DNA from: Strigamia acuminata
Lineage: Eukaryota > Arthropoda > Chilopoda > Geophilomorpha > Linotaeniidae
Assembly: GCA_949358305.1 (NCBI GenBank)
Contig: OX442321.1
Span: forward strand, 4,241,605 to 4,305,604
Reading direction: 5' to 3'
Length of the DNA: 64,000 nt
This document shows positions 10,985 through 40,496 of this stretch, piece after piece. The notes under the pieces are model-generated. The model saw nothing but the letters and a program-made list of their open reading frames with translations, did not search any database and was not told where the DNA came from. Position 1 is the first letter of the stretch, and every line of letters begins with the position of its first letter. The translations under genes and the position numbers were made by a program.

Positions 10985-11200
10985 GAATTTTTAATTCAAA
11001 AAAATTATTTTTTGGACCTAAAAATGGATTTTTAGACCTAAAAATGAATTTTTAGACCTAAAAATGAATTTTTAGACCTAAAAATGAATTTTTAGACCTA
11101 AAAATGAATTTTTTGACCTAAAAATGAATTTTTTGACCTAAAAATGAATTTTTTGACCTAAAAATGAATTTTTAGACCTAAAAATGAATTTTAATGCACA
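10985..11200. repeat. 20-bp minisatellite, ~10 copies
   Basis: The unit GACCTAAAAATGAATTTTTA is repeated in tandem with few changes. Related 20-bp units occur near 36.6, 50.4, 51.1, 52.3 and 58.0 kb. Confidence 0.9.
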
Positions 11201-20829: not shown

Positions 20830-20835
20830 TTTATT
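20830..20835 (-). terminator. Polyadenylation signal of the proline-rich gene
   Basis: AATAAA on the minus strand lies 12 nt downstream of the TGA stop at 20848-20850, so the 3' UTR should be very short. Confidence 0.75.
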
Positions 20836-20847
20836 CAGTCTTTATAT

Positions 20848-21295
20848 TCATCTTTCTCTTGGGTAAGCTGGACCTGTGGCAGAAGGTGGCGGTGGTCTTG
20901 GTCTCCTTCCACCGCCTCCGAGTTGATTGGTAAATTCGATGTCACCCGGTCTAACCGGCGGCCGATTTCGCGGTTCAAAATGGAACTGATGGAACGCATG
21001 GTACCTCGAGTCACCTTCCCATACTTTGTCTCCTCCTGCCGAGTCTGGCGGTGGTCTCACCGGTGGAGGCGCGATTGGCGGTGGCCTTACTGGCGGAGGT
21101 GCAATCGGCGGTGGTCTCACCGGTGGAGGCGCAATTGGCGGTGGCCTTACTGGCGGTGGCCTTACTGGCGGTGGCCTTACTGGCGGAGGCCCTACTGGTG
21201 GGGGTGCAATTGGAGGTGGTCTGACTGGTGGTTGTGTCACAGGTCTTCGTCCAGATTCACCACTACTTTGGTCTTCATCAATAGGATAAATGGGT
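20848..21295 (-). CDS. Proline-rich gene, exon 15 (C-terminal)
   Basis: It opens with PPIYPIDEDQSSGESGRRP, then about ten RPPPV/APPPI/GPPPV pentads. It ends in a non-repeat tail with a GDSRYHAFHQFHFEPRNRPP core, a Gly-Gly-Gly-Gly-Arg-Arg stretch and PAYPRER before TGA. This tail is a diverged copy of the N-terminal module in exon 2. Confidence 0.85.
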
Positions 21296-24200
21296 CTGCA
21301 AAGATGAAAGATAGATGGATTTAGGTAGATAAGAGGAATTTATTTTTTGATTATCAAAAATTGTGCTGGATTTTGAAATGTTTGTTTTATTTTGGGCCAC
21401 CAGCGGGGTTGGACACGTATGTTTTGGAACATAATGTATTGAAGGATATGACCAGGTGGCATAAAAATTCAGGGGGCGCGCATCTAGCGCGGCACAATCT
21501 ACCGCGACACGTACAATACGTTCCATAAAAATTGGTTTTTTATCAAAAAACCAGTAAGGTTAGCACTTCTTAGGAATTAAATCTAAAATAAACGTAGTCG
21601 CAGTTTCAACAGCCCCGGTAGATACGTGTCGCGGTAGATTGTGTCGCGCTGGATGACACGCTCCAAAAATTCAAGTTTTCTTGTGGACAAAACTTTATCC
21701 AGTCGTGGATCGTCCCATTTCAGCTTGAAGCTCACATGCAGGATGAGCGTTTTTGGCTGTATCCACCAGTTAGTGCAAAAATTTACTGATATGTTTTGAC
21801 AAATTGACATTTAAATGACGTCACTCAATCATCTAAACCCATCAAGCTGGACTGGGACGATTTTTATGACCAAGGCTACTGCAGGAAATTTTTTGTCCAT
21901 GGCTGTACATTTTTTTAGAATTTTAATACTTAATAAATTGAAAATAAATATGCATACGGGCTGATTGGTGGTGGCCTAATGGGTGGAGGTGCAATTGGTG
22001 GCGGCCTAATTGGTGGCGGCCTAATGGGTGGAGGTGCAATTGGCGGCGGCCTAATTGGTGGCGGTCTAATCGGTGGAGGTGCAATTGGTGGCGGCCTAAT
22101 GGGTGGTGGCCTTATGGGTGGAGGTGCAATTGGTGGTGGTCTAATTGGTGGTGGCCTTATGGGTGGAGGTGCAATTGGTGGTGGCCTAATTGGTGGTGGC
22201 CTGATAGGTGGAGGTGCAATAGGAGGTGGTCTAATTGGCGGTGGCCTCACTGGTGTTGGTGTGGTTCTTCGGCTAGCTTCACCACTATTTTCGTCGTCTT
22301 CGTCGTCAGTTGGATAAGCCGGAGCAGGCCTGAAAGATGAATAAGACTTGTCAACACCATCATATATGATTATTTAAACAACACAAGAAAATTTTCTCAG
22401 GAGCGGCTAGACTAGATACATTGCACTTTTTGCACACAGGAATGAATTGTGAAAGGAAGTTTGAAACTGAATAACTCTAAAACTGAAATACTACGAGTAG
22501 ATGCATTCGAAAAATCAGTTATAAATTGAAGTTAAACATGTTTGCTGTTTAAATGTTGTGGGTGATCTGTGACCAAAGGCAGTTTTAGTCACAAGCCGTT
22601 TCTTAAGTTTGTCGAGGCAACCCGCCATGCCGATAACTCCTCTTTATACTGGCATGCTGGTGTAAGTGAGAAGGAATTGTTTTCAATCAGAATTGAGCCA
22701 AAACAAGCATAAAAAGCATTTTTAGATGTCCAAAGTGTAGGAAATTGGCCTAAATTGCTATAAATTTTCCAAAATTTTAGAAATAATCTTCAGAATATCA
22801 AGAAAACTCAAATTTCAGGCCCAAATTCAAACATAATTATTCATCCCTGCTCTTTTATATACAGGGTGTTTCGTTTAAGATGCCCAGTCAATTTCCAGAA
22901 TAAATATATGCTTTTTTAAAAAAACCAAGCAGACTATCCTATAGCAAAGTAGGAATGACAAATCCAATGCTGTAATCAAATTTTATGCCAGACATGCAAC
23001 AATGCACTTTTCATTTGCTAACTCGTTAACTGGTTGAGATAGAGCAAAATTTCCAATTACAAAGTTGTAGAGCACCATCAAATTAGTACTATCAAAGTTA
23101 TCTTAGTCATCTTAAGTTAATTCTTTTCACTTTAAAATGAAAACAAATCAGCTAAAATAAAGTAAGCCATTGCGGCAAAAATTAAATTTCTACTGCAAAA
23201 GTACTGAATTTCTTCAATAAATGTATTCAAATTTGCATTATTATGCAAGTAAACAAGAAAAACCACTGTATTTTTTTCTGCCTAAATTATTTTATTTTCT
23301 AAGAATAAAAATTTTCAATATGCTGATTTGTTTTCCTTTTTTTTAAAACAAAAACAGTTAACTTAAGGTGACTAAGATCAGGTGGATAGTACTAATTTTA
23401 TGATTCTCTACAACTTTGTAATTGGAAATTTTGCTCTATCTCAACCAGTTAACGAGTTAGCAAATGGAAAGTGCATTGTTGCATGTCTGGCAAAAAATTT
23501 GATTACACCATTGAATTCTTCATCCCTACTTTGCTATAGGATAGTCTGCTTGGTTTTTAAAAAAAGCATATACTTATTCTGGAAATTGACTGGGCATCTT
23601 AAACGAAACACCCTGTATATAAAAAAAACAAAAAAATAGCTTTTTCACTTATACTGACACGTTTCACTTTATATCGGCATGCCGCTACAAACTGTTTGAC
23701 TGTAATTCCAAAATCCTGGTAAACGCATGTCCAACGGCATGCGGCTTAACGCAGGTTAATATGGTACCAGTATTGTGAAAAATCTGATAACAAGAAGCAA
23801 TTTTCCGCACTTATACAACACTTACAATCTGTTAGTTCAGGTTAGTAGTTTGTGACTTTAAAAATAGAAATAGTATACGTACGGTCTGACGGGTGGAGGT
23901 CTAACTGGTGGTGGCCTTATAGGTGGAGGTGCGATAGGTGGTGGTCTAATTGGTGGTGGCGCAATAGGCGGTGGTCTAATTGGTGGTGGCCTGATAGGTG
24001 GTGGCGCAATAGGCGGTGGTCTAATTGGTGGTGGCCTGATAGGTGGTGGCGCAATAGGCGGTGGTCTAATTGGTGGTGGCCTGATAGGTGGTGGCGCAAT
24101 AGGCGGTGGTCTAATTGGTGGTGGCCTTATAGGTGGAGGTGCGATTGGCGGTGGCCTCACCGGTGTTGGTGTGGTTCTTCGGCTAGCTTCACCACTATTT

Positions 24201-27200
24201 TCGTCTATTTCAATAGGATAAATAGGCCTGCAGAGATGAGTAAAATAAAAAGGTAGTTATTGGACTGTGGAGTATTATATTTTCAAGAAAGAGAAGAACA
24301 TCAAGCCGTTATAAATTCTGGGCTGCTGGACTCAATAAGGAACGAATTTGCAATTGTTTAACGATTATAGCGGTAATAAGCGAAGAGTTGCACCAGAGAC
24401 GAAAAAGGAGTTTTTCTGCGATGATTTTTTAGAGCAACAAGTGCTTGTGAATATGTCTAATCCAAGAATCGAGTATCACAATTTGTGCAAAATTAAATGG
24501 CAAAACAAAACGCTCACTCGAGTGTTTTTGTGCGATTTATGAAAAGTTGCAAAATCATTCGATTAATGAAGTCCCTCATTGCTGGGAATACCAGGGACTG
24601 AGTACACCATTTCAGTGATATTTTAATAATATACATACGGAGGTCCAACAGGTGGTGGTCTCACAGGTGGAGGCCTAACTGGTGGTGGAGCAATTGGTGG
24701 TGGTCTCACAGGTGGAGGCCTGACCGGTGGTGGAGCAATTGGTGGTGGTCTCACAGGTGGAGGTCTTACTGGTGGTGGAGCAATTGGTGGTGGTCTCACA
24801 GGTGGAGGCCTGACCGGTGGTGGAGCAATTGGTGGTGGTCTCACAGGTGGAGGTCTTACTGGTGGTGGTCTTACAGGTGGAGGCCTGACCGGTGGTGGTC
24901 TCACAGGTGGCGGCCTGACAGGTGGTGGAGCAATTGGTGGCGGCCTGACCGGTGGTGGAGCAATTGGTGGCGGTCTCACAGGTGGAGGCCTGACCGGTGG
25001 TGGAGCAATTGGTGGCGGCCTGACCGGTGGTGGAGCAATTGGTGGTGGTCTCACAGGTGGAGGCCTAACCGGTGGTGGAGCAATTGGTGGTGGTCTCACT
25101 GGTGGAGGCCTAACCGGTGGTGGAGCAATTGGTGGTGGTCTCACTGGTGGAGGCCTTACTGGTGGTGGGACAATTGGTGGCGGCCTAACTGGTGGTGGTC
25201 TCACAGGTGGGGGCCTTACTGGTGGAGGTCTAATTGGTGGACCTGGCACAGGTGGTTCCTCATCTGTGGGGTAAGTTGGTGGTCTAAAGTATAAAAATTT
25301 GATTTCGATCAACATAATTGTCACGGTTTTTATTTCAGGTGCTATAGTTATTTTCTTACTGAATTTAGATATTGAAATATGTGCAAAAGACAATTACTTA
25401 TTATTGATTACGCAATAAATGGAACAAAATATACTTACGGTCTTACAGGTGGTGGCCTCACAGGTGGAGGAGCTATTGGAGGGGGCCTCACAGGTGGAGG
25501 TGCAATTGGTGGTGGCCGTACAGGTGGAGGTCTCACAGGTGGAGGTGCAATTGGTGGTGGCCGTACAGGTGGTGGTCTCACAGGTGGTGGTCTCACAGGT
25601 GGTGGTCTCACAGGTGGTGGTCTCACAGGTGGTGGTCTCACAGGTGGTGGTCTCACAGGTGGAGGTGCAATTGGCGGTGGCCTCACAGGTGGGGGTCTTA
25701 TTGGTGGAGGTGCAATTGGTGGTGGCCTCACGGATGGTGGTCTTATAGGTGGAGGTGCAATTGGTGGTGGCCTCACAGGTGGAGGTCGTATTGGTGGAGG
25801 TGCAATTGGTGGTGGCCTGACAGGTGGTGGTCTTATAGATGGAGGTGCAATTGGCGGTGGCCGAACAGGTGGTGGTCTCACAGGTGGAGGTGCAATTGGT
25901 GGTGGCCTGACAGGTGGTGGTCTTACAGGCGGAGGAGCAATTGGCGGTGGCCTCACAGGTGGGGGTCGTATAGGTGGAGGTGCAATTGGTGGTGGCCTTA
26001 CAGGCGGTGGCCTCACTGGTGGAGGAGCAATTGGCGGTGGCCTTACTGGCGGGGGTCTGATGGGTGGTGGTGGTGGTTCCGTCTCTTCTTCTGTAGGATA
26101 ACTTGGTGGTCTATAAATAGAATTAGAACAAAATAAAATACATTTTTGGTTCAAAATTGACATGTCACTTCTTATTAGTCATACTTGTGTCCACTGAGCA
26201 TGACTAACACTACAATGTACAGAAGCTTTAGTGGAGAAATAAATATTATTTTAATGTTAAATTGGTGAGTAGCTTATTAGTGCTTTCCCCTTGTGAGTTG
26301 TCCTGGATCAAATAAGTTTTAATGATTTAAATGTGCTGTAAGTAGTTTGGTTGAGGGTGTAAAAACTTTACTTTGTACTGAAGATACTTACGGTCTTGGT
26401 ACTGGTGGCGGAGGTGGTCTCGGCACAGGTGGTGGAGGTGGCCTGGGCACCGGTGGAGGTGGGGGTCTGGGCACAGGTGGTGGAGGTGGTCTCGGCACAG
26501 GTGGTGGAGGTGGTCTCGGCACAGGTGGAGGAGGTGGTCTCGGCACAGGTGGTGGAGGTGGTCTCGGCACAGGTGGTGGAGGTGGTCTTGGTACTGGTGG
26601 AGGAGGTGGTCTCGGCACCGGCGGTGGAGGTGGTCTGGGCACTGGTGGTGGAGGTGGCCTTGGTACTGGTGGAGGTGGTGGTCTCGGCACTGGCGGTGGA
26701 GGTGGTCTGGGTACTGGTGGTGGAGGTGGCCTTGGTACTGGTGGAGGCGGTGGTCTCGGCACCGGCGGTGGCGGTGGTCTTGGCACCGGCGGTGGTGGTG
26801 GCCTGGGAATGGGTGGAGGTGGCGGTCTTGGAACAGGAGGTGGAGGGGGTTCTTCTGTATCAGGAGGATAAACAGGTGGTCTGAAAGAACAAACAATTTT
26901 TTAAATAAACTAGAAAGGGAGCTGGATGTAGAATAAGCAGCACCATAATCAGATTACCAATTTTAAACAAGTTAGAAGAGGTAATGTTCTTCTGCTAGAT
27001 GAAAAGTTTACTTACTAATTTGTAAGTGTTTTACTTTTTACATGTTGTTCACAAAATTCTATTTATTACTTGCACATTTTAAGTAAAAGATTATTAGTAA
27101 TCACACCAAACTGTTAATGGATTTGCTCAGATATAAATTGTTTAATAACTAGCAACGATACATACGGTCTTGGCACAGGTGGCGGAGGTGGCCTTGGCAC

Positions 27201-30200
27201 TGGTGGTGGTGGAGGTCTAGGTACTGGGGGTGGAGGTGGTCTGGGTACTGGTGGAGGTGGTGGTCTGGGCACTGGTGGTGGAGGTGGCCTTGGTACTGGT
27301 GGAGGTGGTGGTCTCGGCACTGGCGGTGGAGGTGGTCTTGGCACCGGCGGTGGAGGTGGTCTGGGTACTGGTGGAGGTGGTGGTCTGGGCACTGGTGGTG
27401 GAGGTGGCCTTGGTACTGGTGGAGGTGGTGGTCTCGGCACTGGCGGTGGAGGTGGTCTTGGCACCGGCGGTGGAGGTGGTCTGGGTACTGGTGGAGGTGG
27501 TGGTCTGGGCACTGGTGGTGGAGGTGGCCTTGGTACTGGTGGAGGTGGTGGTCTCGGCACTGGCGGTGGAGGTGGCCTCGGCACCGGCGGTGGCGGTGGT
27601 CTTGGCACCGGCGGTGGTGGTGGCCTGGGAATGGGTGGAGGTGGTGGTCTTGGAACAGGAGGTGGAGGGGGTTCTTCTGTATCAGGAGGATAAACAGGTG
27701 GTCTGAAAGAACAAACAATTTTTTAAATAAACTAGAAAGGGAGCTGGATGTAGAATAAGCAGCATCATAATCAGATTACCAATTTTAAACAAGTTAGAAG
27801 AGGTAATGTTCTACTGCTAGATGAAAAGTTTACTTACTAATTTGTAAGTGTTTTACTTTTTGCATGTTGTTCACAAAATTCTATTCATTACTTGCACATT
27901 TTAAGTAAAAGATTATTAGTAATCACACCAAACTGTTAATGGATTTGCTCAGATATAAATTGTTTAATAATTAGCAACGATACATACGGTCTTGGCACAG
28001 GTGGCGGAGGTGGCCTTGGCACTGGTGGTGGTGGAGGTCTAGGTACTGGTGGTGGAGGTGGTCTGGGCACCGGTGGTGGAGGTGGCCTGGGGACCGGTGG
28101 TGGAGGTGGCCTGGGGACTGGTGGTGGAGGTGGCCTTGGCACAGGTGGGGGTGGTGGTTCTTCTGTATCAGGAGGATAAACTGGTGGTCTGTGAAATTAA
28201 AAACAACTTTTAAAAAAATCAGAAAAAGTAAGGCTAAACACAGACTAATTTTAAAACTTCTATTTTCTTAAGTATATCAGTTTTAGCAGCATAATAAAAT
28301 CGTCAGTGGATTAAAGTTGGTAAATGTAATGTTTTGCTACCAGATGAAAATTGTGAAAGTGTGAAATTGTGGTAGTTTTACTTTGAGCATGTGATTCATT
28401 AAGTGTGCTCCTAAACTTTCATTTTTGTTGTTTCTTCATTGTTGTTTCAGTGGTTGTCTAGAACTTGTTTCGCATTTTTGATTAAGTGATACATGTGTGA
28501 GGTTAGACTCAACTGGTGGTCTATTGGTCCCATTGTTTGCCACATTTCAAATTTTCTGTGCTGATAAACCGGTAATTCTGATCTAAGTTTGGTTAGGATA
28601 ATTCTTTATTATGTCACATTAATCTATTATTTGTTACGTAGAATGTATCTATTAGATCAAACTATTTTTACAAATTAAAACCTGATGGATACTAAGAAAA
28701 GAAAAACACACACCTGAATGTGTGATAGTTTTTAATGAAACGTAGCTTGGTAAAACCTATGCTTTACTAAAGATCAATAAGGTGCTCACAAAAATATTAT
28801 CACAGTGTTAAAATTCCTCATTTTTTTTGTAAAAAACACAATAAAAGGTATATATTTGTAATTACCATTAAAGAAATGAAGTTTTTGCACTAAATAAACT
28901 AGACATTAAGGATGCCAACACAACAATTGGGAAAATTTTAACATCGTGATAATATTTTTGTGACCATCTCAACTTGCGAGCAGAAAGAAAATTCTTTCCT
29001 TTTTTACTTTCGCATAAGGAAGAAAAGGCACTTTTGAATAAACGCACTTGTTGTTTTTTTTATTTTTATTTGTGCTTGCGCAAATCCAAGGTTTTTGTAT
29101 GCTTTAATTTATGTTTTAGTACACAAAAGTCTGGTTTTTAGGGTTAAAACAGACGTTTTACCCTTTATTTACTCATTAAAATGAATGTTTTATCTTTAAA
29201 ACGAATGGAAGTGATTAGATTCATTCAAATTTATTTCCAGTGTCGAAGTTTGAAATGAAGAAAAGTAAAGAATTTTCTTTCCTTTTGCAAATTGAATGCA
29301 CCTAAAGTTTAGGAATAGAATTACTTCATTCCTTCTAAAACCTGCACACTTAATTCCTTCTAAACATTGCACATTTAATTCCTTCTTAAACTTGCATATT
29401 TAATTCTTGCTAAAATTTGCAAATTATAAGTGAAAATTTTATATTAACTAGTATACATACGGTCTTGGCACAGGGGGTGGCGGTGGCCTGGGTACAGGTG
29501 GTGGAGGCGGTCTAGGCACCGGTGGTGGGGGTGGCCTTGGCACAGGTGGTGGAGGCGGTCTTGGCACCGGTGGTGGAGGGGGTCTCGGCACCGGTGGTGG
29601 AGGCGGTCTCGGCACTGGTGGTGGGGGCGGTCTCGGCACTGGTGGTGGGGGTGGCCTTGGCACAGGTGGTGGAGGCGGTCTCGGCACTGGTGGTGGAGGC
29701 GGTCTCGGCACTGGTGGTGGGGGCGGTCTCGGCACAGGTGGTGGAGGCGGTCTCGGCACTGGTGGTGGAGGCGGTCTCGGCACTGGTGGTGGGGGCGGTC
29801 TCGGCACCGGTGGTGGGGGTGGCCTTGGCACTGGTGGTGGAGGCGGTCTTGGCACTGGTGGTGGAGGTGGTCTAGGCACTGGTGGTGGTGGTGGTCTTGG
29901 TACGGGTGGTGGTGGTGGTCTTGGTACGGGTGGTGGAGGCGGCCTGGGCACTGGTGGCGGAGGCACCTCTTCTTCATCAGGAGGATAAGCTGGTGGCCTG
30001 CAAAATTAAAAACAACATTTTTTACTTCTAATCAACTACAAAATTAGGTGCATATAAAACCAACAAATATGTCATCAAGTCATAATTCTATGCTACTTTT
30101 TGGTATTCTTTTGATGCATAGGTTTGATTTGGAATCTCTCAAATGTTCGAGTCAACCTCTAAATATTTTTGAAATATAATTTCAGTAATATTTTTGTAAT

Positions 30201-33200
30201 TATTTGATTGTTTTGAGTAATAATTGTGATGTAAGTGTAAATAATATACATTTGAGTGTGGATGCATGGATTGGAATTGGAATTCCACAACTTATTACTA
30301 GGCGCATTCGAAAAGTAATTTGCACTAAACGACCAGTGCAACTGGTAGTGTAAATTTCAAGTTAAACGACCCAATTTTCGAGTTTCAAAATAAATTTCTG
30401 TGTAAAATTCAGTCGTGTAAATTCAAGTGTAAATATTAAATTAGTCCAAATAATAACCATAGTCATTATTGTTATTGTTGTTTACTCTAAAAAAAAAAAC
30501 AGGAGATTATAAAAACATGATTATAAAATGTAAATTTATTTTAATTATTTGTATTATTAATATTTATTTCGGGAATCGGCTGAACATCCGCCTCAATCGC
30601 ACAAATGCGGCCGAACACCAGCCGCATTAGATCGCACAAACGCGGCCGAACGTCGGCCGAAAGTCGGCCGCATTCGATTGTACAAATGCGGCCGAACGTC
30701 GGTCGAACGTCGGCCGTATTCGATCGTACAAATGCGGTCGAACATCGGTCGCATTCGATCGCAAGAATGCGGCTAATACCTGCTAAAAAATTGTTCTTGC
30801 GATCGACATCGTTCCAACCGATCTAACGAAAATCCAAGATGGCTGCCAGCAAGACCCGATTTCAACGAGAAAACTCGTTGCACGGAGATTTTAAACGGAA
30901 ACGTGGCGTACAGGCCGTTTCCGTTTAACCAGTTTACACGACATTTACACGAATTAATTCGTGTAAATGTCGTGTGAAAACGAGTGTAAACACATTTACA
31001 CTCGTTTTAATGACTTTTCGAATGCGCCTACTGTATATTCAACTCTTGTAACGAAGAATTTATAGACCTAAATTAGAATTGGAGGTAATAAATGCTATTG
31101 GTGTTATTCCACTTTACTGCATGGAAAGGCATTATGTTAAAACATGTAGACTGCTCATTATCTATTCTTAAGCAATTTAAAAATAAGTAGTCTAAATTTA
31201 AAATTTACATGCAAATTATGTTGACTAGAAAGTATTTTTTTTTTTTTGAGTTGGGATAGATTAAATAGGTAAGTAGTATTTATTTTGTACTAAAGATACT
31301 TACGGTCTTGGTACAGGAGGCGGAGGTGGTCTTGGCACAGGTGGTGGAGGTGGCCTGGGTACTGGTGGAGGTGGTGGTCTGGGCACTGGTGGAGGTGGGG
31401 GTCTGGGCACAGGTGGTGGAGGTGGGGGTCTGGGCACAGGTGGTGGAGGTGGTCTAGGAACTGGTGGTGGAGGTGGTCTCGGCACGGGTGGTGGAGGCGG
31501 TCTCGGCACTGGTGGAGGTGGCGGTCTCGGCACTGGTGGAGGTGGCGGTCTCGGCACTGGTGGAGGTGGCGGTCTCGGCACTGGTGGAGGTGGCGGTCTC
31601 GGCACTGGTGGAGGTGGCGGTCTCGGCACTGGTGGAGGTGGCGGTCTCGGCACTGGCGGTGGAGGTGGCCTGGGGACCGGCGGAGGTGGTGGTCTTGGCA
31701 CCGGCGGTGGAGGCGGTCTAGGTACCGGCGGCGGTGGTGGTCTCGGTACCGGCGGCGGTGGTGGTCTCGGCACTGGCGGTGGAGGTGGCCTTGGTACTGG
31801 CGGTGGCGGTGGTCTGGGAATCGGTGGAGGTGGTGGTCTTGGAACCGGAGGTGGAGGCGGTTCTTCTGTATCAGGAGGATAAACTGGAGGTCTGTAAGAA
31901 CAAAACAATTTTAAATAAACTAGAAAGAGAGCTGGTTGCAGAATAAGCAGCAGAATAATCAGATCACTAGTTTTAATAAATAAGTTAGAAGAGGGAATGT
32001 TCTACTGCTAGATGAAAAGCTTACTTCCTTATTTGTGAGTGTTTACTTTTTACATGTTATTCACTAAATTCCACATTTTAAATTCCACATTTTAAGTAAA
32101 AGATTATTAGTATTCAAAACCAACTGTTAATGGATTTTCTTAGATTTAAATTGTCTAATAACTAGCAACGATACATACGGTCTTGGCACAGGTGGCGGAG
32201 GCGGCCTGGGTACTGGTGGTGGTGGTGGTCTGGGCACCGGCGGTGGAGGTGGTCTGGGGACTGGCGGTGGAGGTGGTCTCGGCACCGGTGGAGGAGGTGG
32301 TCTGGGTACTGGTGGTGGTGGAGGTCTAGGCACTGGCGGTGGAGGTGGTCTCGGCACCGGTGGTGGAGGTGGTCTCGGCACCGGTGGTGGAGGTGGTCTC
32401 GGCACCGGTGGTGGAGGTGGTCTCGGCACCGGTGGTGGAGGTGGTCTCGGCACCGGTGGTGGAGGTGGTCTCGGCACCGGTGGTGGAGGTGGTCTCGGCA
32501 CCGGTGGTGGAGGTGGTCTCGGCACCGGTGGTGGAGGTGGTCTCGGCACCGGTGGTGGAGGTGGCCTGGGCACCGGTGGTGGAGGTGGCCTGGGCACGGG
32601 TGGTGGAGGCCGTTCATCTATGTCTGGAGGGTAAACAGGTGGTCTGCAATATGAAAATGTATTTTTTTTTACAAATTATATTGAGTTTAATGCAGATAGA
32701 ACAACTAGTTTGACAAAAATGGGCTTGTTTCTTTGGTTGATTTTATTCCTTAATTATGTATTAGACATTTTAGTACAACCAATATATAGAGGCTGCTATA
32801 TTTTATGTGACTAGAAAAATCATTTACAGACTTTTTAACAGATTAAGTGAGATTTGAATTAAGATGACATTAAAAGGTCAATCAGGTTATTTAAGTTTCA
32901 TCATTAAAAAAAGTTCATATTTCTAATGGTATGGTACACTTGCAATTTTACTTCTAACACTATAAAATACATGTTAGAAAAAAGAGCAACATTTGAGAGT
33001 TATGACTTGTTTGTGTTGTACTTGTAAAGATTTTTTATTTGAGTTAATTAAAAGCATTTATATTTGATGTCATTTGTTATAATAAAACATACTATTGTGC
33101 AATTTTTATATTTGATTTTAGCGATTCTCTGCTGAAATGCTGTATTTTAGCGACTGCCACGTTAGCAATTCTAAGATCTAAGGTCTCTAATTTAGCGATA

Positions 33201-36200
33201 CGTCTTAGTGATTTATCACTTTAGCGACAGATATGTTTTAGCGGTGTATCACTTTAGGAATAGGTATGTTTCAGCGAAGTACTTATGTAGTTGAATAATT
33301 TTGAGACCTGAATCAATTCAATTCCGAACAACTGCAGCAACAGCTCAACGCAAACCACAAATCTCCACAAATGGAAATACAATTCTGTAATGGTAATCGA
33401 AATGCTTAAAGCAATTCGAAGTAGACCCAAGGTTTATTCCGGGGCTATTGTTACATTGTTGAGTAAACGAGCCCCGATAAGATCTACTGGAACGCAATGA
33501 GGAACAGGCAACATATGCCTAGACTGAGATTTTTACGCGGTGTTGCGCGCAGCTACGAGTCCACTAAAACATTTTTAATAATAGTGCTTGCCTCAATTAA
33601 AAAACAAAAACAATAGCGACGGTACAATTTATTATACCACCATTGATTTTAAAAATTTTAATCAATTTAAAATGTAAAAGAAGTACCTTCTTATTTGCCA
33701 TTTGGGAAAGAAACAAATTTACACACAATTTAACCTCCGTGGCACAAGGAGCATTCATGTAGAATTTCACTTGTTAATGTTTTTTTTCCTACTTTTCAAA
33801 ATTAAGATAATTTTTAACAAACTTACGGTCTAGGTACAGGGGGTGGCGGCCTCGGTGGCGGTGGTGGTCTGGGCACTGGTGGTGGAGGAGGTCTAGGAAC
33901 CGGTGGTGGTGGAGGCCTTGGCACCGGTGGTGGCGGAGGCCTTGGCACCGGTGGTGGCGGAGGCCTTGGCACCGGGGGTGGCGGAGGCCTTGGAACCGGG
34001 GGTGGCGGAGGCCTTGGCACCGGGGGTGGCGGAGGCCTTGGCACCGGGGGTGGTGGAGGCCTTGGCACCGGTGGTGGTGGAGGCCTTGGCACCGGTGGTG
34101 GTGGAGGCCTTGGCACCGGTGGTGGTGTAGGCCTTGGCACCGGTGGTGGTGGAGGCCTTGGCACCGGTGGTGGTGGAGGTCTAGGCACCGGTGGTGGTGG
34201 AGGTCTAGGTACAGGTGGTGGTGGTGGTTCTTCTTCATCTATAGGATAACTTGGAGGTCTATAAAAAAAATTGTTATTCTAATAAAATTAATTAAATCAA
34301 AGTTTGATATTGCATGGAATTTTTGCTAGTATACATTTCAATTGATTTATTTAATTAGAGCAAAATTATAAACCTTTCCTTACATATAATTTAGGCATGC
34401 TAGAGTATACTGAATGTCAAAATTTTAGGTAGTTTTCAATGCCAGTTTGTCAACCTCCAAATCCGTTCAGACATTGAAAGTTGGAAAAGAATTGAGAGGA
34501 AATAGACTATACATTGTAAATAAAAGATGCTTGAATTGATTTAAAAAAAATATTTGCCACATTTTTTCAGAACTATCAGTCAATCACGACATAATTATAA
34601 GTTCAGTGCATGCTAACAAATTGAAAACATTTAATAGATCTTTGGAAAAAGGCAGTCATAACAATGGTCCCCCTCTCTATGAGAAAAACCAATGAAAAAT
34701 AACATTGTTAATTTATACGGAGTAGTTTTTATGGATGGGGCTCTAACTGTATTATGTCAATTTTCCAATGGTCTATTGTGTGTGATCAAACTTTAGTCTT
34801 AAAGAAGAATACATAAATGTTTCTAAAATCTAAAATCTAAAATGAGAGATGTCATTAATTATTCAGTTATCTTTGCTACGGATATGTAAAGGCAACTTAC
34901 GGTCTTGGAGCAGGCCTAGGTGGTGGTGGAGGCCTTGGTACTGGTGGTGGAGGCGGTCTTGGTGCTGGTCTTGGCGGTGGTGGTGGAGGGGGCCTTGGTA
35001 CTGGTGGAGGAGGTGGTCTTGGTGGTGGTGGTGGAGGCCTTGGTACTGGTGGTGGAGGGGGCCTTGGTACTGGTGGAGGAGGCGGTCTTGGTGCTGGTCT
35101 TGGTGGTGGTGGTGGAGGCCTTGGTACTGGTGGTGGAGGGGGCCTTGGTATTGGTGGTGGAGGGGGCCTTGGCACCGGTGGTGGAGGGGGCCTTGGCACT
35201 GGTGGTGGAGGGGGCCTTGGCACTGGTGGTGGAGGGGGCCTTGGCACCGGTGGTGGAGGGGGCCTTGGCACCGGTGGTGGAGGGGGCCTTGGCACCGGTG
35301 GTGGAGGGGGCCTTGGCACCGGTGGTGGAGGGGGCCTTGGCACCGGTGGTGGAGGGGGCCTTGGCACTGGTGGTGGAGGCGGTCTTGGAGCTGGTCTTGG
35401 TGGTGGTGGTGGAGGCGGTCTTGGTGCTGGTCGTGGTGGTGGTGGTGGTGGTGGTGGTGGTCTTGGTGGAGGACCAGGCACAAATGGTTCCTCATCGGGT
35501 GGGTAAACAGGTGGTCTGTAAAAGATAATTGTACTTTGTCATTTAAACAATAACAATTTTTTATATTATTTTATTATGACAGAAGTGGATTTATAGGTTT
35601 TCAGTTTTCAGGAGTCCCTCCCTCTTCTTGAATTCCAAAGTAAATTTTTTTCTAATTTGGGTCCCAAAAACGCAGCAAGAAAGGGCGCACAAACCATAAT
35701 TAAGCTAATGGTGAAAAGGAAAGTAGGCTTTTTCGTGCTACTGTTTTCCTTGTGACCTCAACATTGAAAACAATTCTACTGCTGCGTATAATATTGAAGC
35801 CTAGAGTGACTTAAATTGCTTTTTTATAAAGTGTTTTATGATTTGTACAAGGCGTTTGGTGACCTTAGCTAAATTGTGTAGCAAAATGCATCATAAAAGA
35901 AACAAAAGTCAGTCATTTTCGAGTTCAATGTTGAACGCTGTTAAAATTATTAAAATTCAGATTTAATTGTATAACATCATTTTATTTATGGCTTATCCAA
36001 GTTAATTCAGTACCTTTAAAGAAAGTTTCGCCAGGGGGCGCCCCTTAATATGGGCATCCGGTCTCTGGCAAACCAGTCCAATTTTTACTGACCACAGGTC
36101 AGCACGTAAGTTTTAGTGATCCCGATTTTCGAAGTTTTTTTTAGTTAATTTCTTTAAAAATTTGATTGCTTTTTCTGTTGTTTTCTTGAATTTAGTATTT

Positions 36201-39200
36201 TAGAATCATGACTCAAGCTTCTTTAACCAAAAAGAGTTGCAAGAGCCGATTTTCCGCTAGCAGCGCTTAAGTTAGTTCACATTTCTGGCACTAGGGAGGG
36301 TGCAAAACCAACGCTCTTATTTTTATTTGATATGTACCTTTAAAATTTTTTTTTAAAAAAAGAGTGCGTGCTTAAGACCGCATGGCAGAAGCTAAGCTTC
36401 TTGCCATGTTCATCGTTAAAAGAATAAAGAGTTGCTGTTAATTATAGGTTTAATAGTGTCAATAACAATTTTTTTAGAAACTGAAATGTATTCCGTATCT
36501 GTTTTGACTAAATCACATTAGTCATTGGCTGATCGAGGGGGTGACCAAAAATTCAATTCTTTCAATAAAAAATTAAAATTTAGGCCTAAAAATTTATTTT
36601 GAGACTAAAATGATTCTACTTTTGGCCAGAATCATTACATTTTTGACCAAAACAGTTAATTTTTGGCCTAACACAGCTAGTCTTTGGCCCAATACAACTA
36701 ATTTTTGGCCCAAAACAGCTAATTTTTGGCCCCAAAACTACGGTAGGCACTTTAGTGATTCCGAATGAGATGTCACAAGAGAGATAAAACGAGATATGTC
36801 GCGAAAAATAATTAAAACGTTGATAAGTCTTAACATTACGTTGCGACAATGTTATCATTGATGCCAGTTTCCCAATAGACGGCAGTGCTTTTTGTGACAC
36901 TACTGGTAAAAGCCAAAAGCTGTTCTGAAGCGCTGTTTTCTTCTGAACCCAGCTTAATAGTTTTGCTGGTGTTTTAAGGGGCAGAAAATTTCTATTTAGT
37001 ATAATTAATTAAATTTCACCTGAGATATAGTTCAGTATAATATAAATAAAATGACAAATTTTCAGAAGAAAAAAAAACTGAACAGAAAGTGGTTGTCTGT
37101 AAACGCATATAGCCTTACGCCTCCGAGATTTAACGGAGAGCAGGCACCTTTGCATTGACAACTAATTTACCTTGTCGATTTTTTTTTCTTAACACGAAGA
37201 TTTGCAAATTATTTATAAACCTGAATTGGATGGGAAAAAATGTGCTAATCTGTCATGATTTATTTTTCACTTTCTTTTTGTGATTGTAGATAACAAAATT
37301 TACATACGCTGCACACAGGTGGCAATGTTTTGATCATAAAACCACATGGTCAATGAAGCCATCAAATTGTAATAAATAATTTAAATTTACAAGTTGATGG
37401 CCTTAAAATATTTTGGTCAGACTTGATTTATGTAGTAATTCCCACCAGATACAATTAACTGAAGGTAATTAGTGAACTTTTAACCATCTACATGTTGCCT
37501 CCTGCTGTTTGAAATTGTTATTACACAACAAACAATTGCTGAAGCCTTTCTACATTCTACTTAATTAGCTGTGACATAAAAAGCAATTTCAATGGTCTTG
37601 AGAATACATTATTATCTTTGACCAAGTTAAATCTGAATTTGATGTTTTGTCAGAGGATGCTTCACTGCAAGCTGAAAGCGGAAGGGACTTGAGTGATTTA
37701 TGTAAAAGTTTATTTCAACCTGTCAACATTTGTTTTCTAACGTAATGTAATACACAGGTTGGTTTTTTTTTAATTTTAATTCCCATAAGGGGCCGTCGAT
37801 AAATTACGTAACGCAAAATTTGGGATTTTTAAATCCCTTTCTCCCTCTGTAACATGGTCGTAACAAATTTCCGAACCCCCCCACCCCCTAATTAAGTAAC
37901 AAAACTGAAATCCCCCTCCCAAATTTTCCAAAAATCATATAAAAATGATTATATTTTGATTTAAAATTTAATTTTTTTTTTTTTACATGGAACATAACAA
38001 AATTTGAAACCCCCCCCCCCCCACCCTTGGTGCGTTACGTAATTCCTTAACTGTCTGTTTTAGTTGAAAAATTAGATAATATTATTACACAAATTATTTG
38101 TGGTTTTAAACTGAAATTTTCAGATAAAATTCTAAAATATAAACGAACAGCGAATTATTGATAATTCTATCACAGTAGAAACTGCATTCAAAAAGTTGTG
38201 TTTTAGGTGTTTTTGTTTTTCTATCTTTTAACACCACAAAACAAACAACGAAAGTGAATTGATTCACGGCTTTTTGAGTGCACACCTAGTCTTATTAAAT
38301 TTAAAAAAAAATTGAGATTGAACTCGTCAATGACTATCCTGAACTCTCAATTGGTCTTTGAACTGAAGCAATAACAAACCAACGGGACATTGCCGTAACA
38401 ATTTTAAAATAGACTTCAATCCAAACAGGTTTACTGCAGATTGAAAAATTCCGCGTTTTCACCAAACTAAATCTAACAACAGAACTAAATATTTTTAAAC
38501 AACACTTACGGCGGCCTTGGTGCAGGTCTTGGAGGTGGTGGAGGAAGCGGTCTCGGAGGTGGTGGCGGAAGCGGTCTCGGAGGTGGTGGCGGAAGCGGTC
38601 TCGGAGGTGGTGGCGGAAGCGGTCTAGGAGGTGGTGGCGGCAGTGGTCTAGGAGGTGGTGGAGGAAGTGGTCTAGGAGGTGGTGGAGGAAGCGGCCTAGG
38701 AGGTGGTGGAGGAAGTGGTCTAGGAGGAGGTGAAGGTGGTAGCGGAGGTGGTGGCCTCGGCACTGGTCTAGGAGGTGGTGGAGGTGGATATACTGGTGGT
38801 GGTGGTCTAGGAGGTGGTGGAGGTGGATATACCGGTGGTGGTGGTCTAGGAGGTGGTGGAGGTGGATACACTGGTGGTGGTGGTCTTGGCACTGGTCTAG
38901 GAGGTGGTGGAGGTGGGTATACTGGTGGTGGTGGTGGTCTTGGCACTGGTCTAGGAGGTGGTGGAGGTGGGTATACTGGTGGTGGTGGTGGTCTTGGCAC
39001 TGGTCTAGGAGGTGGTGGAGGCTGTGGTCTTGGAGGTGGTGGTCTTGGGGGTGGCAAAGGTGGATATACTGGAGGTGGAGATGGAAGAGGTCTTGGAGGT
39101 GGAGGTGGAAGAGGTCTTGGTGGTGGAGGTGGAAGAGGCCTTGGAGGTGGAGGTGGAAGAGGTCTTGGAGGAGGTGGTCTTGGCGGTGGAGGTGGAAGTG

Positions 39201-40132
39201 GCCTTGGAGGAGGTGGTCTTGGAGGTGGTGGCGGTTCTTCATCCTCATCAGTTGGGTACAATTGGGATGGTTTCGGCCGGGTTTGAAATCCTCCAATTAA
39301 ACTGTTATCAGTCACTACAGGATCAACAGGCCTGACAGGAGGCCTCGGTTGGCGGGGCTGCGAATGGAACTGGTGAAAGGCATGTTGCGAAGAATCACCG
39401 GTCCACTCGGACCCACCCAGCTGATTGTGCTGGCGAACTGTCCTTAAGTTTGAATCACTGTTTTGGAACTGTTGACTCTGTTCGTGCAGCCACTCGTCGC
39501 TGCCCGCTTCGTGCAGCACTTGGGGGACGTCATTGGGATCGTCGTCAACATTTTGCACTTGAAACTGTTTGGTTTGTTGAGGACTTAGTTTGCCGAATTC
39601 AAAATCCGAAAACTGTGTGATTTCCGGATTGTTGAATAATTCCTGTTGCTCTTCGGTGGATCTCTTCTTTGGCTGGAGTCCTGCTACTGGCAGTGCCACC
39701 AGTAGGGACAATATTAACAGCCGCAATATTTTCTAGGTTTTAAAGAAGAAAAACAAGTTATTCGAAGGAATTTTAATTGCCATTTACTTGTGCAACTCAT
39801 AAACTAAGCTAGAAATAGACATGAAACGCAGTTATCTCACGAATTAACGCTAGTTTCTTTTTTTTTTAAACAAAGTTTACTCATTGTTATGCTATAGCAC
39901 TTCATTGTGGCATTTTCAGTTTAAGGTAGTCATGATTCCAAACTTTTGATCAATTTAGACCCGCGTTGTAATGGAATCCCGCGTTCTATTAGAGTATTAC
40001 GGTATAGCGCCATTTATGTCATTAATCCAAACTTTAAAGTCAGTTTTCATATAGAAACACCAAAAATCGTACAAAGACCCATCAACAGGTCATTGCTTTG
40101 GGAATTGTGATATTCCATAACAACGATTAATG

Positions 40133-40168
<36 letters not shown>

Positions 40169-40399
40169 GTAATAAATAAAACAAATGAAATGAAGTTTCA
40201 GTGAGTATGTGAACGACCTCGTTCGAAGCTTATCTTTTGTAATGCTAAGTGAGAATTGACGCTTGTTTTGTTAGTCAATTTTAACCCTAATGAAGGCTAA
40301 GTGGGTTACTTCTAATTTGCTTAAATATTTTTTTTGGTGCTGTAAGTAGCAGGAAGTAGAAATTTAAAAAAATGAAATTTAAAAAAATAACCTTACCAT
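20848..40399 (-). CDS. Secreted giant proline/arginine-rich repeat protein, 15 exons, ~2,523 aa
   Basis: Exons in transcript order: 40399-40397, 39732-38510, 35515-34901, 34258-33827, 32643-32179, 31891-31304, 29997-29461, 28188-27988, 27702-27166, 26880-26392, 26110-25439, 25283-24639, 24227-23883, 22329-21958 and 21295-20848. The sum is 7,572 nt, exactly 2,524 codons. The first exon gives only the ATG; exon 2 continues KILRLLILSLLVALPVAG, a clear signal peptide. Residues ~25-150 are acidic/Gln-rich and hold HAFHQFH (118-124). Three repeat blocks follow: PPPPRPL heptads (exon 2), VPRPPPPP octads (exons 3-10) and RPPPV/APPPI pentads (exons 11-15). The C-terminus repeats the HAFHQFH module (2474-2480). 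After exon 1 every intron is phase 2. The repeats should form polyproline-II helices outside the cell. Candidate roles are matrix, cuticle or adhesive protein, or a proline-rich antimicrobial precursor; I recognise no named family. Confidence 0.85.
21488..21642. repeat. Inverted repeat with GCGCGACA ends in intron 14
   Basis: GCGCGGCACAATCTACCGCG (from 21488) pairs with CGCGGTAGATTGTGTCGCGC (to 21642). A related pair (GCGCGACATTGTCTACCGCG) sits at 55549-55715, so this is probably one MITE family. Confidence 0.65.
21958..22329 (-). CDS. Proline-rich gene, exon 14
   Basis: The cap PPAYPTDDEDDENSGEASRR is nearly the same as that of exon 13. It is followed by a regular 15-residue higher-order repeat (IRPPPIRPPPIAPPP) about seven times. 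It ends ISP at a GTATGC donor. Confidence 0.85.
22854..23623. mobile_element. Long fold-back element (~770 bp, ~300-bp arms)
   Basis: TTTATATACAGGGTGTTTCG at 22854 is inverted at the right end (CGAAACACCCTGTATATAAA). The two arms pair nearly throughout, to about 23156 and from about 23322, leaving a loop of about 165 bp. It lies in intron 13 of the proline-rich gene. 'ACAGGGTGTYYC' ends are common on arthropod non-autonomous elements. No coding capacity. Confidence 0.88.
23883..24227 (-). CDS. Proline-rich gene, exon 13
   Basis: The cap is PPIYPIEIDENSGEASRRTT, then pentads in which a 45-bp unit (RPPPIRPPPIAPPPI) is repeated about four times almost exactly. The donor is GTACGT. Confidence 0.85.
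24639..25283 (-). CDS. Proline-rich gene, exon 12
   Basis: The cap PPTYPTDEEPPVPGPPIRPP resembles that of exon 3 (YPPDEEPFVPGPP). About 39 pentads of RPPPV/APPPI follow. Confidence 0.85.
25439..26110 (-). CDS. Proline-rich gene, exon 11
   Basis: The cap is PPSYPTEEETEPPPPP and about 41 pentads follow, including six successive identical RPPPV units (25568-25657). It is the first exon of the pentad block; exon 10 upstream uses octads, so the repeat type switches exactly at an intron. Confidence 0.85.
26392..26880 (-). CDS. Proline-rich gene, exon 10
   Basis: The cap PPVYPPDTEEPPPPPVPRP matches exons 6, 8 and 9. About 18 octads VPRPPPPP follow. The intron after exon 9 and the intron after exon 8 are near copies (see the intronic repeat entries). 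Confidence 0.85.
26881..27165. repeat. Duplicated intron, copy A (intron 9)
   Basis: About 285 bp almost identical to 27703-27987 and clearly related to 31892-32178. Together with the adjoining exons this marks tandem duplication of exon-plus-intron units. Confidence 0.95.
27166..27702 (-). CDS. Proline-rich gene, exon 9
   Basis: It has the same cap as exon 10 and about 20 octads. Inside it a 120-bp block (five octads) is repeated three times almost without change, starting at 27241, 27361 and 27481, which indicates very recent expansion. Confidence 0.87.
27703..27987. repeat. Duplicated intron, copy B (intron 8)
   Basis: It differs from copy A at only a handful of positions over its whole length, including the donor and acceptor flanks. 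Confidence 0.95.
27988..28188 (-). CDS. Proline-rich gene, exon 8 (short)
   Basis: Only 67 codons: cap PPVYPPDTEE and about seven octads. It is the shortest repeat exon and shows how freely the repeat number varies between otherwise matching exons. Confidence 0.85.
28781..28968. mobile_element. Small MITE (~190 bp) in intron 7
   Basis: GGTGCTCACAAAAATATTAT with CACAGTGTTAAAATT pairs with AATTTTAACATCGTGATAAT followed by ATTTTTGTGACC. Confidence 0.8.
29461..29997 (-). CDS. Proline-rich gene, exon 7
   Basis: The cap is PPAYPPDEEEVPPPPVPRP, with about 21 octads VPRPPPPP. The acceptor is TTTTGCAG followed by GCC rather than ACC. Confidence 0.85.
30299..31030. mobile_element. Inverted-repeat element (~730 bp) in intron 6
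   Basis: TAGGCGCATTCGAAAAGT at the left is exactly inverted at the right (ACTTTTCGAATGCGCCTA). The interior has a second palindrome (ACACGAATTAATTCGTGT) and a GC-rich tandem repeat of GCGGCCGAACRTCGGCCG (30570-30790). No coding capacity. Confidence 0.85.
31304..31891 (-). CDS. Proline-rich gene, exon 6
   Basis: The cap is PPVYPPDTEEPPPPPVPRP, with about 23 octads. A 24-bp unit is repeated seven or eight times without change (31502-31650). One unit carries an extra proline (PPPPPP near 31425), an in-frame slip. Confidence 0.86.
31892..32178. repeat. Duplicated intron, copy C (intron 5)
   Basis: It can be aligned end to end with the introns at 26881-27165 and 27703-27987 but is more diverged, so it reflects an older duplication of the same unit. 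Confidence 0.88.
32179..32643 (-). CDS. Proline-rich gene, exon 5
   Basis: The cap is PPVYPPDIDERPPPPVPRP, with about 18 octads. An identical 24-bp unit is repeated about nine times (32350-32570). Confidence 0.85.
33827..34258 (-). CDS. Proline-rich gene, exon 4
   Basis: The cap is PPSYPIDEEEPPPPPVPRP, with about 15 octads, including one variant unit with Thr. Its last part changes to PPPPPRPPPPVPRP. Confidence 0.85.
34901..35515 (-). CDS. Proline-rich gene, exon 3
   Basis: The cap is PPVYPPDEEPFVPGPPPRPP. It has a mixture of octads with irregular PPPPPPRPAPRP units at both ends and a regular octad core (35150-35370). It is transitional between the exon 2 style and the octad block. Confidence 0.85.
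35962..36047. repeat. Dispersed repeat, family with TTGTATAACATCA, copy 1
   Basis: It shares TTGTATAACATCA, TTTATTTATGGCTTRTCC and AGTACYTTTAAAGAAA words, then CGCCAGGGGGCGCC, with copies at 51505-51602 and 55411-55550. Class unknown. Confidence 0.75.
36550..36745. repeat. Short minisatellite (GGCCCAAAACAGCTAATTTTT)n
   Basis: About six units of a roughly 21-bp word, related to the 20-bp satellite at 11.0 kb. It lies in intron 2 of the proline-rich gene. Confidence 0.8.
37790..38050. mobile_element. MITE-like element with TTACGTAACGC ends
   Basis: CGATAAATTACGTAACGC at the left and GTGCGTTACGTAATT at the right are inverse. The leading GGGGCCGTCGATAAATTACG is very like a repeat seen in many arthropod genomes (GGGGCCGTCCATAAATTACG). 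C-rich runs lie in the core. Confidence 0.75.
38510..39732 (-). CDS. Proline-rich gene, exon 2 (N-terminal)
   Basis: Begins AAA ATA TTG at acceptor CCTAG, directly after the ATG exon. It encodes the rest of the signal peptide, a KKRS basic site (residues 23-26), a non-repetitive Gln/Asp-rich region, the GDSSQHAFHQFHSQPRQPRP module, an acidic YPTDEDEE cap and then PPPPRPL heptads with PPVYPPPPPPRP blocks. The donor is GTAAGT; its TAA is in frame with the exon. Confidence 0.87.
40140..40168. repeat. (AAT)n microsatellite
   Basis: About ten perfect trinucleotide copies in intron 1 of the proline-rich gene. Confidence 0.95.
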
Positions 40400-40488: not shown

Positions 40489-40496
40489 CTTATATA
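40489..40496 (-). promoter_or_regulatory. TATA box of the proline-rich gene
   Basis: TATATAAG on the minus strand, about 90 nt upstream of the ATG exon end. An initiator-like CTCAATCTCA follows about 35-45 nt downstream. Confidence 0.6.

Follow-up and report, generated by a model that had tools for sequence, protein, structure and literature searches.

A window of 64,000 nucleotides on chromosome 8 of the centipede Strigamia acuminata contains a gene whose predicted product we read, with a probability of about 0.6, as a secreted block copolymer of cationic polyproline rods, the bulk polymer of a gland glue, a silk-like thread or another matrix. The gene, a single autosomal one, is itself close to certain; all of its features described here lie on the minus strand. 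An insect origin of the DNA, for instance from a beetle, was rejected: the telomerase gene of the genome was matched best by the human PDB chains 7qxa, 7trd and 7bg9 (209 bits against 91 for the next), with no Tribolium enzyme among the entries listed. Four features of the gene go beyond the initial annotation of the locus: the two ends of the chain are homologous to each other, every exon from 2 to 15 carries one acidic tyrosine node, some of the introns are homogenised, and nearly all arginines stand directly before proline in a chain free of cysteine.

Gene structure

Joined from the open frames, the 15 coding exons (40399 to 20848) give 7,572 nt, that is 2,524 codons: 2,523 residues and one stop, which stands at the final codon only. 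This rebuilds exactly the single 15-exon gene of 2,524 codons called in the initial annotation, and the accompanying statement that every splice site is present and the phases agree holds as well (14/14 donors are GT, 14/14 acceptors AG, and 13 of the 14 introns are of phase 2). A TATATAA box is found at 40490 to 40496, its first base 97 nt before the start codon, and the coding part of exon 1 (40397 to 40399) is the ATG alone (M|gtaagg). Exon 2 (38510 to 39732; 407 whole residues) holds the remainder of a signal-like leader, a KKR site, the non-repeat N-terminal region with one of two caps, the first tyrosine/acid node, and repeats of the forms RPLPPPPP and PVYPPPPPP. Exon 3 (34901 to 35515) combines the node PPVYPPDEE with a mixed Pro/Arg rod. 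In the seven exons that follow, the rod is (PRPPPPPV)n, preceded by the node PPSYPIDEEE in exon 4 (33827 to 34258), PPVYPPDIDE in exon 5 (32179 to 32643), PPAYPPDEEE in exon 7 (29461 to 29997) and PPVYPPDTEE in exons 6 (31304 to 31891), 8 (27988 to 28188, with a short rod), 9 (27166 to 27702) and 10 (26392 to 26880). The rods then change their rhythm: exon 11 (25439 to 26110; node PPSYPTEEETE) has an RPPP[V/I]/APPP[V/I] rod that keeps for the most part to an R-R-A order, exon 12 (24639 to 25283; node PPTYPTDEE) an RPPPV/APPPV rod, exon 13 (23883 to 24227; node PIYPIEIDENSGEASRR) an RPPPI/APPPI rod and exon 14 (21958 to 22329; node PAPAYPTDDEDDENSGEASRR) a strict RPPPI-RPPPI-APPPI rod. Exon 15 (20848 to 21295) ends the chain with the node PIYPIDEDQSSGESGRR, a short rod, the second cap and the stop TGA (20848); an AATAAA lies 12 nt past the stop codon (20830 to 20835). 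A scan of the 14 introns in 12-residue windows with at least 6 Pro found no overlooked proline-rich exons. Two more secreted-looking low-complexity genes, one of them GY-rich, lie nearby on the same strand.

The repetitive core between non-repeat ends that had been proposed for this gene is borne out, and the signal and the stop are confined to the first coding exons and the last exon, respectively, as claimed; the AATAAA, which had also been assigned to the last exon only, is not, since the introns contain 24 on the minus strand. This is somewhat over the shuffle mean of 18.1, and the hexamers leave room for early transcript ends. Together with TATA-like words, which the introns contain too, they would suit an array that is partly dead or split into several units of transcription. 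Such a reading is very improbable: the sole methionine of the whole chain is residue 1, followed by the sole signal-like leader found, every junction is phase-matched, no stop precedes the final codon and the synonymous bias is strong. Where copies in exons 3-15 differ in a codon by one base, the change is synonymous in 599 cases and nonsynonymous in 37 when read in the called frame (ratio 0.06, neutral count 2.2), while the other two minus frames give nonsynonymous/synonymous ratios of 6.5 to 99.5. Counted over all differing bases, the contrast between codon positions 1, 2 and 3 (244, 205 and 761, each of about 1,920) is weaker, as this count takes in comparisons that are out of register.

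The strand does not follow from codon conservation alone, since the mirrored Gly-rich frame of the plus strand is nearly as silent: it shows 415 synonymous and 13 nonsynonymous changes (13/428) in exons 3-10, where the minus frame shows 421 and 15, and 169 and 32 (32/201) in exons 11-15, where the minus frame shows 178 and 22. CCN and GGN share their wobble positions, which accounts for this closeness. It would suit a plus-strand gene whose product is a silk- or cuticle-like protein rich in glycine, (GGGGGLGTG)n, as would a GT within 6 nt at 3 of 13 mirrored donors. We find such a gene scarcely credible, given that its GG-frame is interrupted by one stop in each of 13/13 exons, at a distance of 8-14 nt from the end of the node, and that an AG occurs within 6 nt at 0 of 13 mirrored acceptors. 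On the minus strand, the splice sites are better than chance would give: the donors used fall within the best 0.7-11.9% (median 3.0%) among 2,895 GT sites (Fisher p 1e-11) and the acceptors within the best 0.2-27.9% (median 5.8%) among 2,935 AG sites (Fisher p 3e-9), scored with consensus weights and on sites that are not independent, as the exons are copies.

Composition of the predicted chain

A putative N-terminal signal peptide, MKILRLLILSLLVALPVAG, is recognised by hydropathy and by eye, with an 11-residue hydropathy maximum of 2.85; in exons 3-15 this maximum stays at or below 0.43 within the opening 40 residues. Without its first 20 residues the chain has 266 kDa and a net charge of +224. 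It consists of about 62% Pro and 12% Arg, with 282 of the 297 arginines directly before a proline, whereas Cys is lacking altogether and Lys is found only 7 times in 2,523 residues, never between residues 156 and 2464. Fourteen of the 22 tyrosines belong to the nodes, one per exon in exons 2-15, and in each of these exons the acidic node is followed by a cationic proline rod. Arginine recurs about every 8 residues in the rods of exons 4-10 and every 5 residues in exons 11-15, where alanine takes part of the places; the resulting R-R-A rhythm, which does not reach significance in exons 12 and 15, could have originated by copying of a 45-bp unit. Dibasic positions are restricted to six: two in the KKR near the N-terminus, three in the nodes of exons 13-15 and one near the C-terminus.

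Related caps and cassette copying

The two non-repeat ends of the chain are homologous to each other, as demonstrated by aligning the N-cap (39265 to 39417; W..GDSSQHAFHQFHSQPRQPRPPVRP...) with the C-cap (20887 to 21033; W.GDSRYHAFHQFHFEPRNRPPVRP...): they agree at 55-56% over about 50 residues and have the motif GDS-x2-HAFHQFH in common. A search of the genome for further caps gave no convincing copy; one weak match on C4 (E 1.44, one stop) was taken as chance. Structure prediction from the alignment of the two sequences returned no confident fold (mean pLDDT 58).

Clear intron homology is confined to 3 of the 14 introns. Introns 8 (27703 to 27987) and 9 (26881 to 27165), both of 285 bp, are 98.2% identical, and intron 5 (31892 to 32178; 287 bp) is about 86% identical to both; the exons flanking introns 8 and 9 are 85-89% identical. 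The gene may have grown by copying exon-plus-intron cassettes, a process that these introns establish for part of it. At either end of a cassette a proline codon is divided after its second base, so that a cassette can be copied, lost or skipped without disturbing the frame. A node-plus-rod query of the genome gave 7 matches at E<=0.001, all of them exons 4-10 of the same gene; as it missed exons 2, 3 and 11-15 of its own gene, this query is blind to diverged paralogues too.

Relatives and comparable proteins

No relative of the protein was found within the length limits of our searches, in agreement with the earlier statement that no named family is known: Pfam, protein clusters and the PDB gave no convincing match. 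Residues 20-166 of exon 2 yielded 75 candidates and the N-terminal 149 aa 7, none at E<=10 in either case, and exon 6 had no match at E<=0.001 among the at least 8,000 candidates listed. These three protein searches (queries of 407, 149 and 195 aa) admit only candidates of 0.55-1.75x the query length, so that none of them could return a relative of full length (about 2,500 aa), and the result is further limited to collections whose animal content is unstated. The PDB offered one chance-like match (E 1.1), ten stretches of viral contigs fitted a pattern with none confirmed, and Pfam found no domain above cut-off in exons 2, 6, 11, 14 and 15, its sole listing being SIP1 in exon 2 (E 0.86). Among the matches listed from the open-licence literature, no paper describes this protein.

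Plant extensins are built of polyproline rods with VY tyrosines open to oxidative cross-linking and of SP(3-5) motifs with glycosylated hydroxyproline. The centipede chain shares the rods and such VY tyrosines, likewise candidates for oxidative cross-links, but SPPP occurs only twice in it, which does not make up the SP(3-5) pattern of extensins; common descent is not suggested.

Repeated exons with homogenised introns, as in flagelliform and MaSp2-type genes, are not defining for all spidroins. In the flagelliform and Argiope MaSp2 spidroins, repeat exons are described as bounded by repeated, homogenised introns (PMC9779670), and the present gene likewise encodes a very long secreted repeat protein with non-repeat ends and repeat-coding exons. 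It has cassette exons throughout and homogenised introns in 3/14. Unlike the spidroins, whose core is reported to consist of A, G, P and Q (PMC9779670), it has a core of Pro/Arg rods, the cap at one end is homologous to that at the other, its clear intron homology is restricted to introns 5, 8 and 9, and a Pfam scan of exons 2 and 15 at E<=1 lists no spidroin N- or C-terminal domain. The velvet worm slime proteins ES_P1 and ES_P2 are similar in being large, Pro-rich and basic: they are given as secreted, mostly disordered chains of 231 and 188 kDa with 16-17% Pro and 9-10% Lys, in which some cysteines occur, the Lys-rich repeats carry basic dipeptides and the N-termini are rich in Gly/Ser (PMC9218773). 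The centipede protein differs from them in its extreme share of Pro and Arg, in its want of Cys and near want of Lys, and in an N-terminus that by eye is not Gly/Ser-rich. Of centipede origin are the 'Glue1-18' sequences of the Lithobius telopodal gland, a defensive secretion, which are described as without known family and mostly with signal peptides (PMC11170834); by description only, they share with our protein the centipede source, the signal-like leader and the lack of a known family, but Lithobius belongs to a different centipede order.

Proposed function and alternatives

The protein probably has a material role, structural or sticky. The chain would be exported, its rods would adopt an extended polyproline-II form, and the order of Arg before Pro may confer resistance to trypsin-like proteases. 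The acidic nodes may bind the arginine rods of adjacent chains; within the core, cross-links would most likely form at the tyrosines, given that Cys is absent and the core is free of Lys, and the His/Phe-containing caps may link chains together.

Sequence features fit the cuticle matrix of body or gut, or a lining of mucin type, in which the cationic rods would bind acidic matrix or chitin-associated proteins, as well as they fit a gland polymer: the protein is of secreted type and proline-rich, its tyrosine nodes would suit sclerotisation, and the secreted-looking GY-rich gene lies nearby. We nevertheless regard this as rather unlikely, as neither the Rebers-Riddiford (CPR) chitin-binding domain nor any other Pfam domain exceeded the cut-off in the five exons scanned. 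It is improbable that the protein serves in defence or is a precursor from which many antimicrobial peptides of the proline-arginine type are released. The Arg-Pro-Pro motifs and the strong positive charge do resemble bactenecins (bactenecin 5 in particular) and apidaecins, yet precursors of the apidaecin type carry a spacer and a cutting site at every unit, whereas here a single chain of full length is predicted, with rods devoid of dibasic processing sites.

For the block copolymer that we favour, candidate materials would be the glue of defensive sternal glands, a silk-like thread made by males or some other secreted matrix; expression in a gland is a guess. Defensive sternal glands are present in geophilomorphs, and in sticky secretions proteins rich in Pro and Gly figure prominently (PMC11170834). 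Males of one geophilomorph make silky threads, although the source itself calls it speculative to connect the male spinneret with silk production (PMC8056527). Tentatively, and with considerable doubt, the protein might even provide the principal structural component of a centipede silk or glue and so be the animal equivalent of extensin, a block copolymer of arginine-studded polyproline with acidic tyrosine nodes for cross-linking and homologous, self-associating caps; its chemistry would then differ both from silks rich in Gly and Ala and from velvet worm slime, which is lysine-rich and linked through cysteine. Since nearly all arginines precede proline and lysines are so few, such a protein would be barely visible to trypsin-based proteomics and easily overlooked. 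If confirmed, it would represent a material protein with a core of almost pure charged polyproline, encoded by a gene whose architecture is in part convergent with that of spider silk genes, and would provide a concrete candidate for the substance of geophilomorph centipede glue or silk.

Gene model and coding constraint

When its open frames rich in proline are joined, the raw window sequence yields one gene on the minus strand, with coding exons at 40399-40397 (exon 1), 39732-38510 (2), 35515-34901 (3), 34258-33827 (4), 32643-32179 (5), 31891-31304 (6), 29997-29461 (7), 28188-27988 (8), 27702-27166 (9), 26880-26392 (10), 26110-25439 (11), 25283-24639 (12), 24227-23883 (13), 22329-21958 (14) and 21295-20848 (15). 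They total 7,572 nt (2,523 codons plus TGA), so the single 15-exon gene of 2,524 codons including the stop, as proposed in the initial annotation, could be rebuilt. Its statement that all acceptors and donors are present in agreeing phases also holds: all 14 introns begin with GT and end with AG, intron 1 being in phase 0 and introns 2-14 in phase 2, so that a proline codon is split CC/N in 13 of the 14. Among the 2,895 GT sites on the minus strand of the window, the donors used fall within the best-scoring 0.7-11.9% (median 3.0%); for the acceptors, the corresponding range is 0.2-27.9% (median 5.8%) of the 2,935 AG sites on that strand. This ranking is based on general consensus weights, and the sites of copied exons are not independent. 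We consider it near certain that the model is correct. The assembly is described as built from HiFi reads with a QV of 59.6 (PMC10556566), which makes an assembly artefact an unlikely source of the gene.

Coding constraint was assessed over exons 3-15 (exon 2 excluded, exon 15 represented by its first 300 nt alone) by pairing each codon with another one further on, at a distance of 24 nt in exons 3-10 and of 45 nt in exons 11-15, and counting codons that differ at a single base. The called frame contains 599 synonymous versus 37 nonsynonymous differences, where 2.2 nonsynonymous per synonymous would be expected under neutrality in the same comparison; the remaining two minus frames have nonsynonymous/synonymous ratios of 6.5 to 99.5. 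When all differing bases are counted, out-of-register places included, the contrast is weaker (244, 205 and 761 at codon positions 1, 2 and 3, with about 1,920 of each). Could the plus strand be the coding one? Its mirrored Gly frame is slightly better than the minus frame in exons 3-10 (415 synonymous/13 nonsynonymous versus 421/15) and worse in exons 11-15 (169/32 versus 178/22). It is nearly as silent since the wobble positions of CCN fall on those of GGN; this near-equality gives the minus-strand reading no support, and the strand call therefore depends on other features. The Gly frame is interrupted by one stop at the node (a short acidic, tyrosine-bearing stretch) in 13 of 13 exons, mirrored acceptors are present in 0 of 13 cases and mirrored donors in 3 of 13, and the minus strand carries an ATG, a signal-like leader and a terminal stop.

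Composition of the chain

The chain is of the secreted type, cationic, cysteine-free and extremely proline-rich; its ends match, and each exon from 2 to 15 holds one acidic tyrosine node. It starts with MKILRLLILSLLVALPVAG and bears a KKR site (residues 23-25). Once the first 20 residues are removed, its mass is 266 kDa and its computed pI 12.00, perhaps the upper limit of the program. Proline accounts for 1,560 residues of the whole chain (61.8%), besides 297 arginines (282 directly followed by proline), 9 histidines, 22 tyrosines and 7 lysines, none of the latter between residues 156 and 2464. Fourteen tyrosine-acid nodes occur, one apiece in exons 2-15; of the tyrosines outside them, 6 belong to PVYPP motifs in exon 2 and 2 to the C-terminal region. 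Acidic SGE motifs occur in the nodes of exons 13-15 (24227-20848), twice as DENSGEASRR and once as EDQSSGESGRR; by consensus these are possible glycosaminoglycan attachment sites, which is a lead only.

Each node is followed by a rod, a long proline-rich repeat whose type depends on the exon. Exon 2 has RPLPPPPP and PVYPPPPPP, and exon 3 a mixture; exons 4-10 use PRPPPPPV, and exons 11-15 combine RPPP[VI] with APPP[VI] (whole-chain counts: PRPPPPPV 128, RPPP[VI] 92, APPP[VI] 37). Were it entirely polyproline-II, with a rise of 0.31 nm per residue, the chain of 2,503 residues would measure about 0.78 micrometre. Alanine is frequent at each third place in exons 11-14 (R-R-A rhythm; shuffle p = 0.002, 0.13, 0.014 and 0.0002, respectively), and the shuffle test gave no signal in exon 15. 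With three residues per helical turn, this would set a neutral stripe on one face, which is a lead only since copying of a 45-bp unit gives the same rhythm.

Related ends, copy number and growth

The non-repeat caps near the two ends (N-cap, 39417-39265 in exon 2; C-cap, 21033-20887 in exon 15) are 55-56% identical over about 50 residues and have the motif W-x-GDS-x2-HAFHQFH-x2-PR-x(1,2)-RPPVRP in common; judged by this similarity, the N- and C-terminal regions are related to each other. When the whole genome was searched in six frames, the N-terminal query hit two places at E<=10, itself and the C-cap (E 5e-7). The C-terminal query hit three: besides its own locus, these were the N-cap (E 0.0013) and a place at E 1.44 that we rated chance-like. 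A cap structure predicted from the two sequences was not confident (pLDDT 58). A node-plus-rod query (E<=0.001; 42 of 42 candidates scored) found seven places, all being exons 4-10 of the gene; it returned none of the gene's own exons 2, 3 and 11-15 and would therefore miss diverged paralogues. Within this sensitivity, the gene appears to be single-copy.

Across their entire 285 bp, introns 8 and 9 share 98.2% identity; each of the two is about 86% identical to intron 5. The best ungapped exon matches are 85% over 201 nt (8 versus 9) and 89% over 489 nt (9 versus 10), these repeats matching in other registers too, and exon 5-intron 5-exon 6 matches exon 9-intron 9-exon 10 at 86% over 1.2 kb. 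Intron likeness and block match together indicate that cassettes (exon-plus-intron units) were duplicated around exons 5-6 and 8-10. As the adjoining exons are less alike than the introns, turnover was apparently faster in the exon repeats. Clear intron homology is limited to 3 of the 14 introns; additionally, a 25-bp stretch is common to introns 6 and 10.

Other loci

Two further secreted-looking genes and an open frame lie on the minus strand of the window. One comprises exon 1 (61489-61457), encoding MKNFYRLFYFL before gtaagt, and a large exon from 61385 to ~59330 with many HPMPQNG and QPLPQHPQNG repeats. A small GY-rich protein (50570-50556 and 50279-49890) contains YGGYGGYGG and GYGHGYGH stretches, its first intron being apparently GC-AG (AAG/gcaagt). 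A 275-aa open frame (54694-53870) has an inner MLIRLFAVLYILPIYSKC leader and a strongly basic, Lys/Arg-rich middle. No Pfam family is listed for any of the three. Short-period tandem arrays outside the studied gene are found at 19352-19696 (11 bp), 52061-52607 and 10979-11192 (both 20 bp), and 56563-57232 (19 bp). Elsewhere in the genome, on contig C12 (the putative X chromosome), telomerase reverse transcriptase is encoded without interruption over at least 1,013 residues, a stretch that thus apparently has no intron.

Relation to known families and putative function

A Pfam scan covering exons 2, 6, 11, 14 and 15 as well as the N-terminal piece revealed no family at E 0.01; a SIP1 match in exon 2 (E 0.86) did not reach its cut-off. 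Searches of a large protein collection found no relative, under length limits that excluded full-length ones. Flagelliform spidroins and Argiope MaSp2 are described as having repeat-coding exons separated by repeated, homogenised introns (PMC9779670), a likeness that is partial here, given clear homology in just three introns. The composition differs from that of velvet worm slime proteins (PMC9218773); unlike in extensins, SPPP is all but absent from the chain (2 occurrences), and unlike antimicrobial peptide precursors its rods lack dibasic sites. The chain would work like an extensin or a silk, but by any test applied it belongs to neither.

The rods would be stiff and protease-resistant, the acid nodes could pair ionically with the arginine rods, the tyrosines may provide cross-links and the caps may link chains together. 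Composition and these putative properties lead us to read the chain as likely being a polymer of a secreted material, be it a defensive sternal-gland secretion, a silky thread or cuticle. Defensive sternal glands are described in geophilomorphs (PMC11170834; PMC8056527), and silky threads for a spermatophore net have been reported for Geophilus flavus males, the part of spinnerets in silk production being called speculative by the same source (PMC8056527). In the main text of the S. maritima genome paper (PMC4244043), the words proline-rich, silk, glue and secretion do not occur. The kind of gene, a cassette-built repetitive secreted polymer, is known; what is new is the composition.
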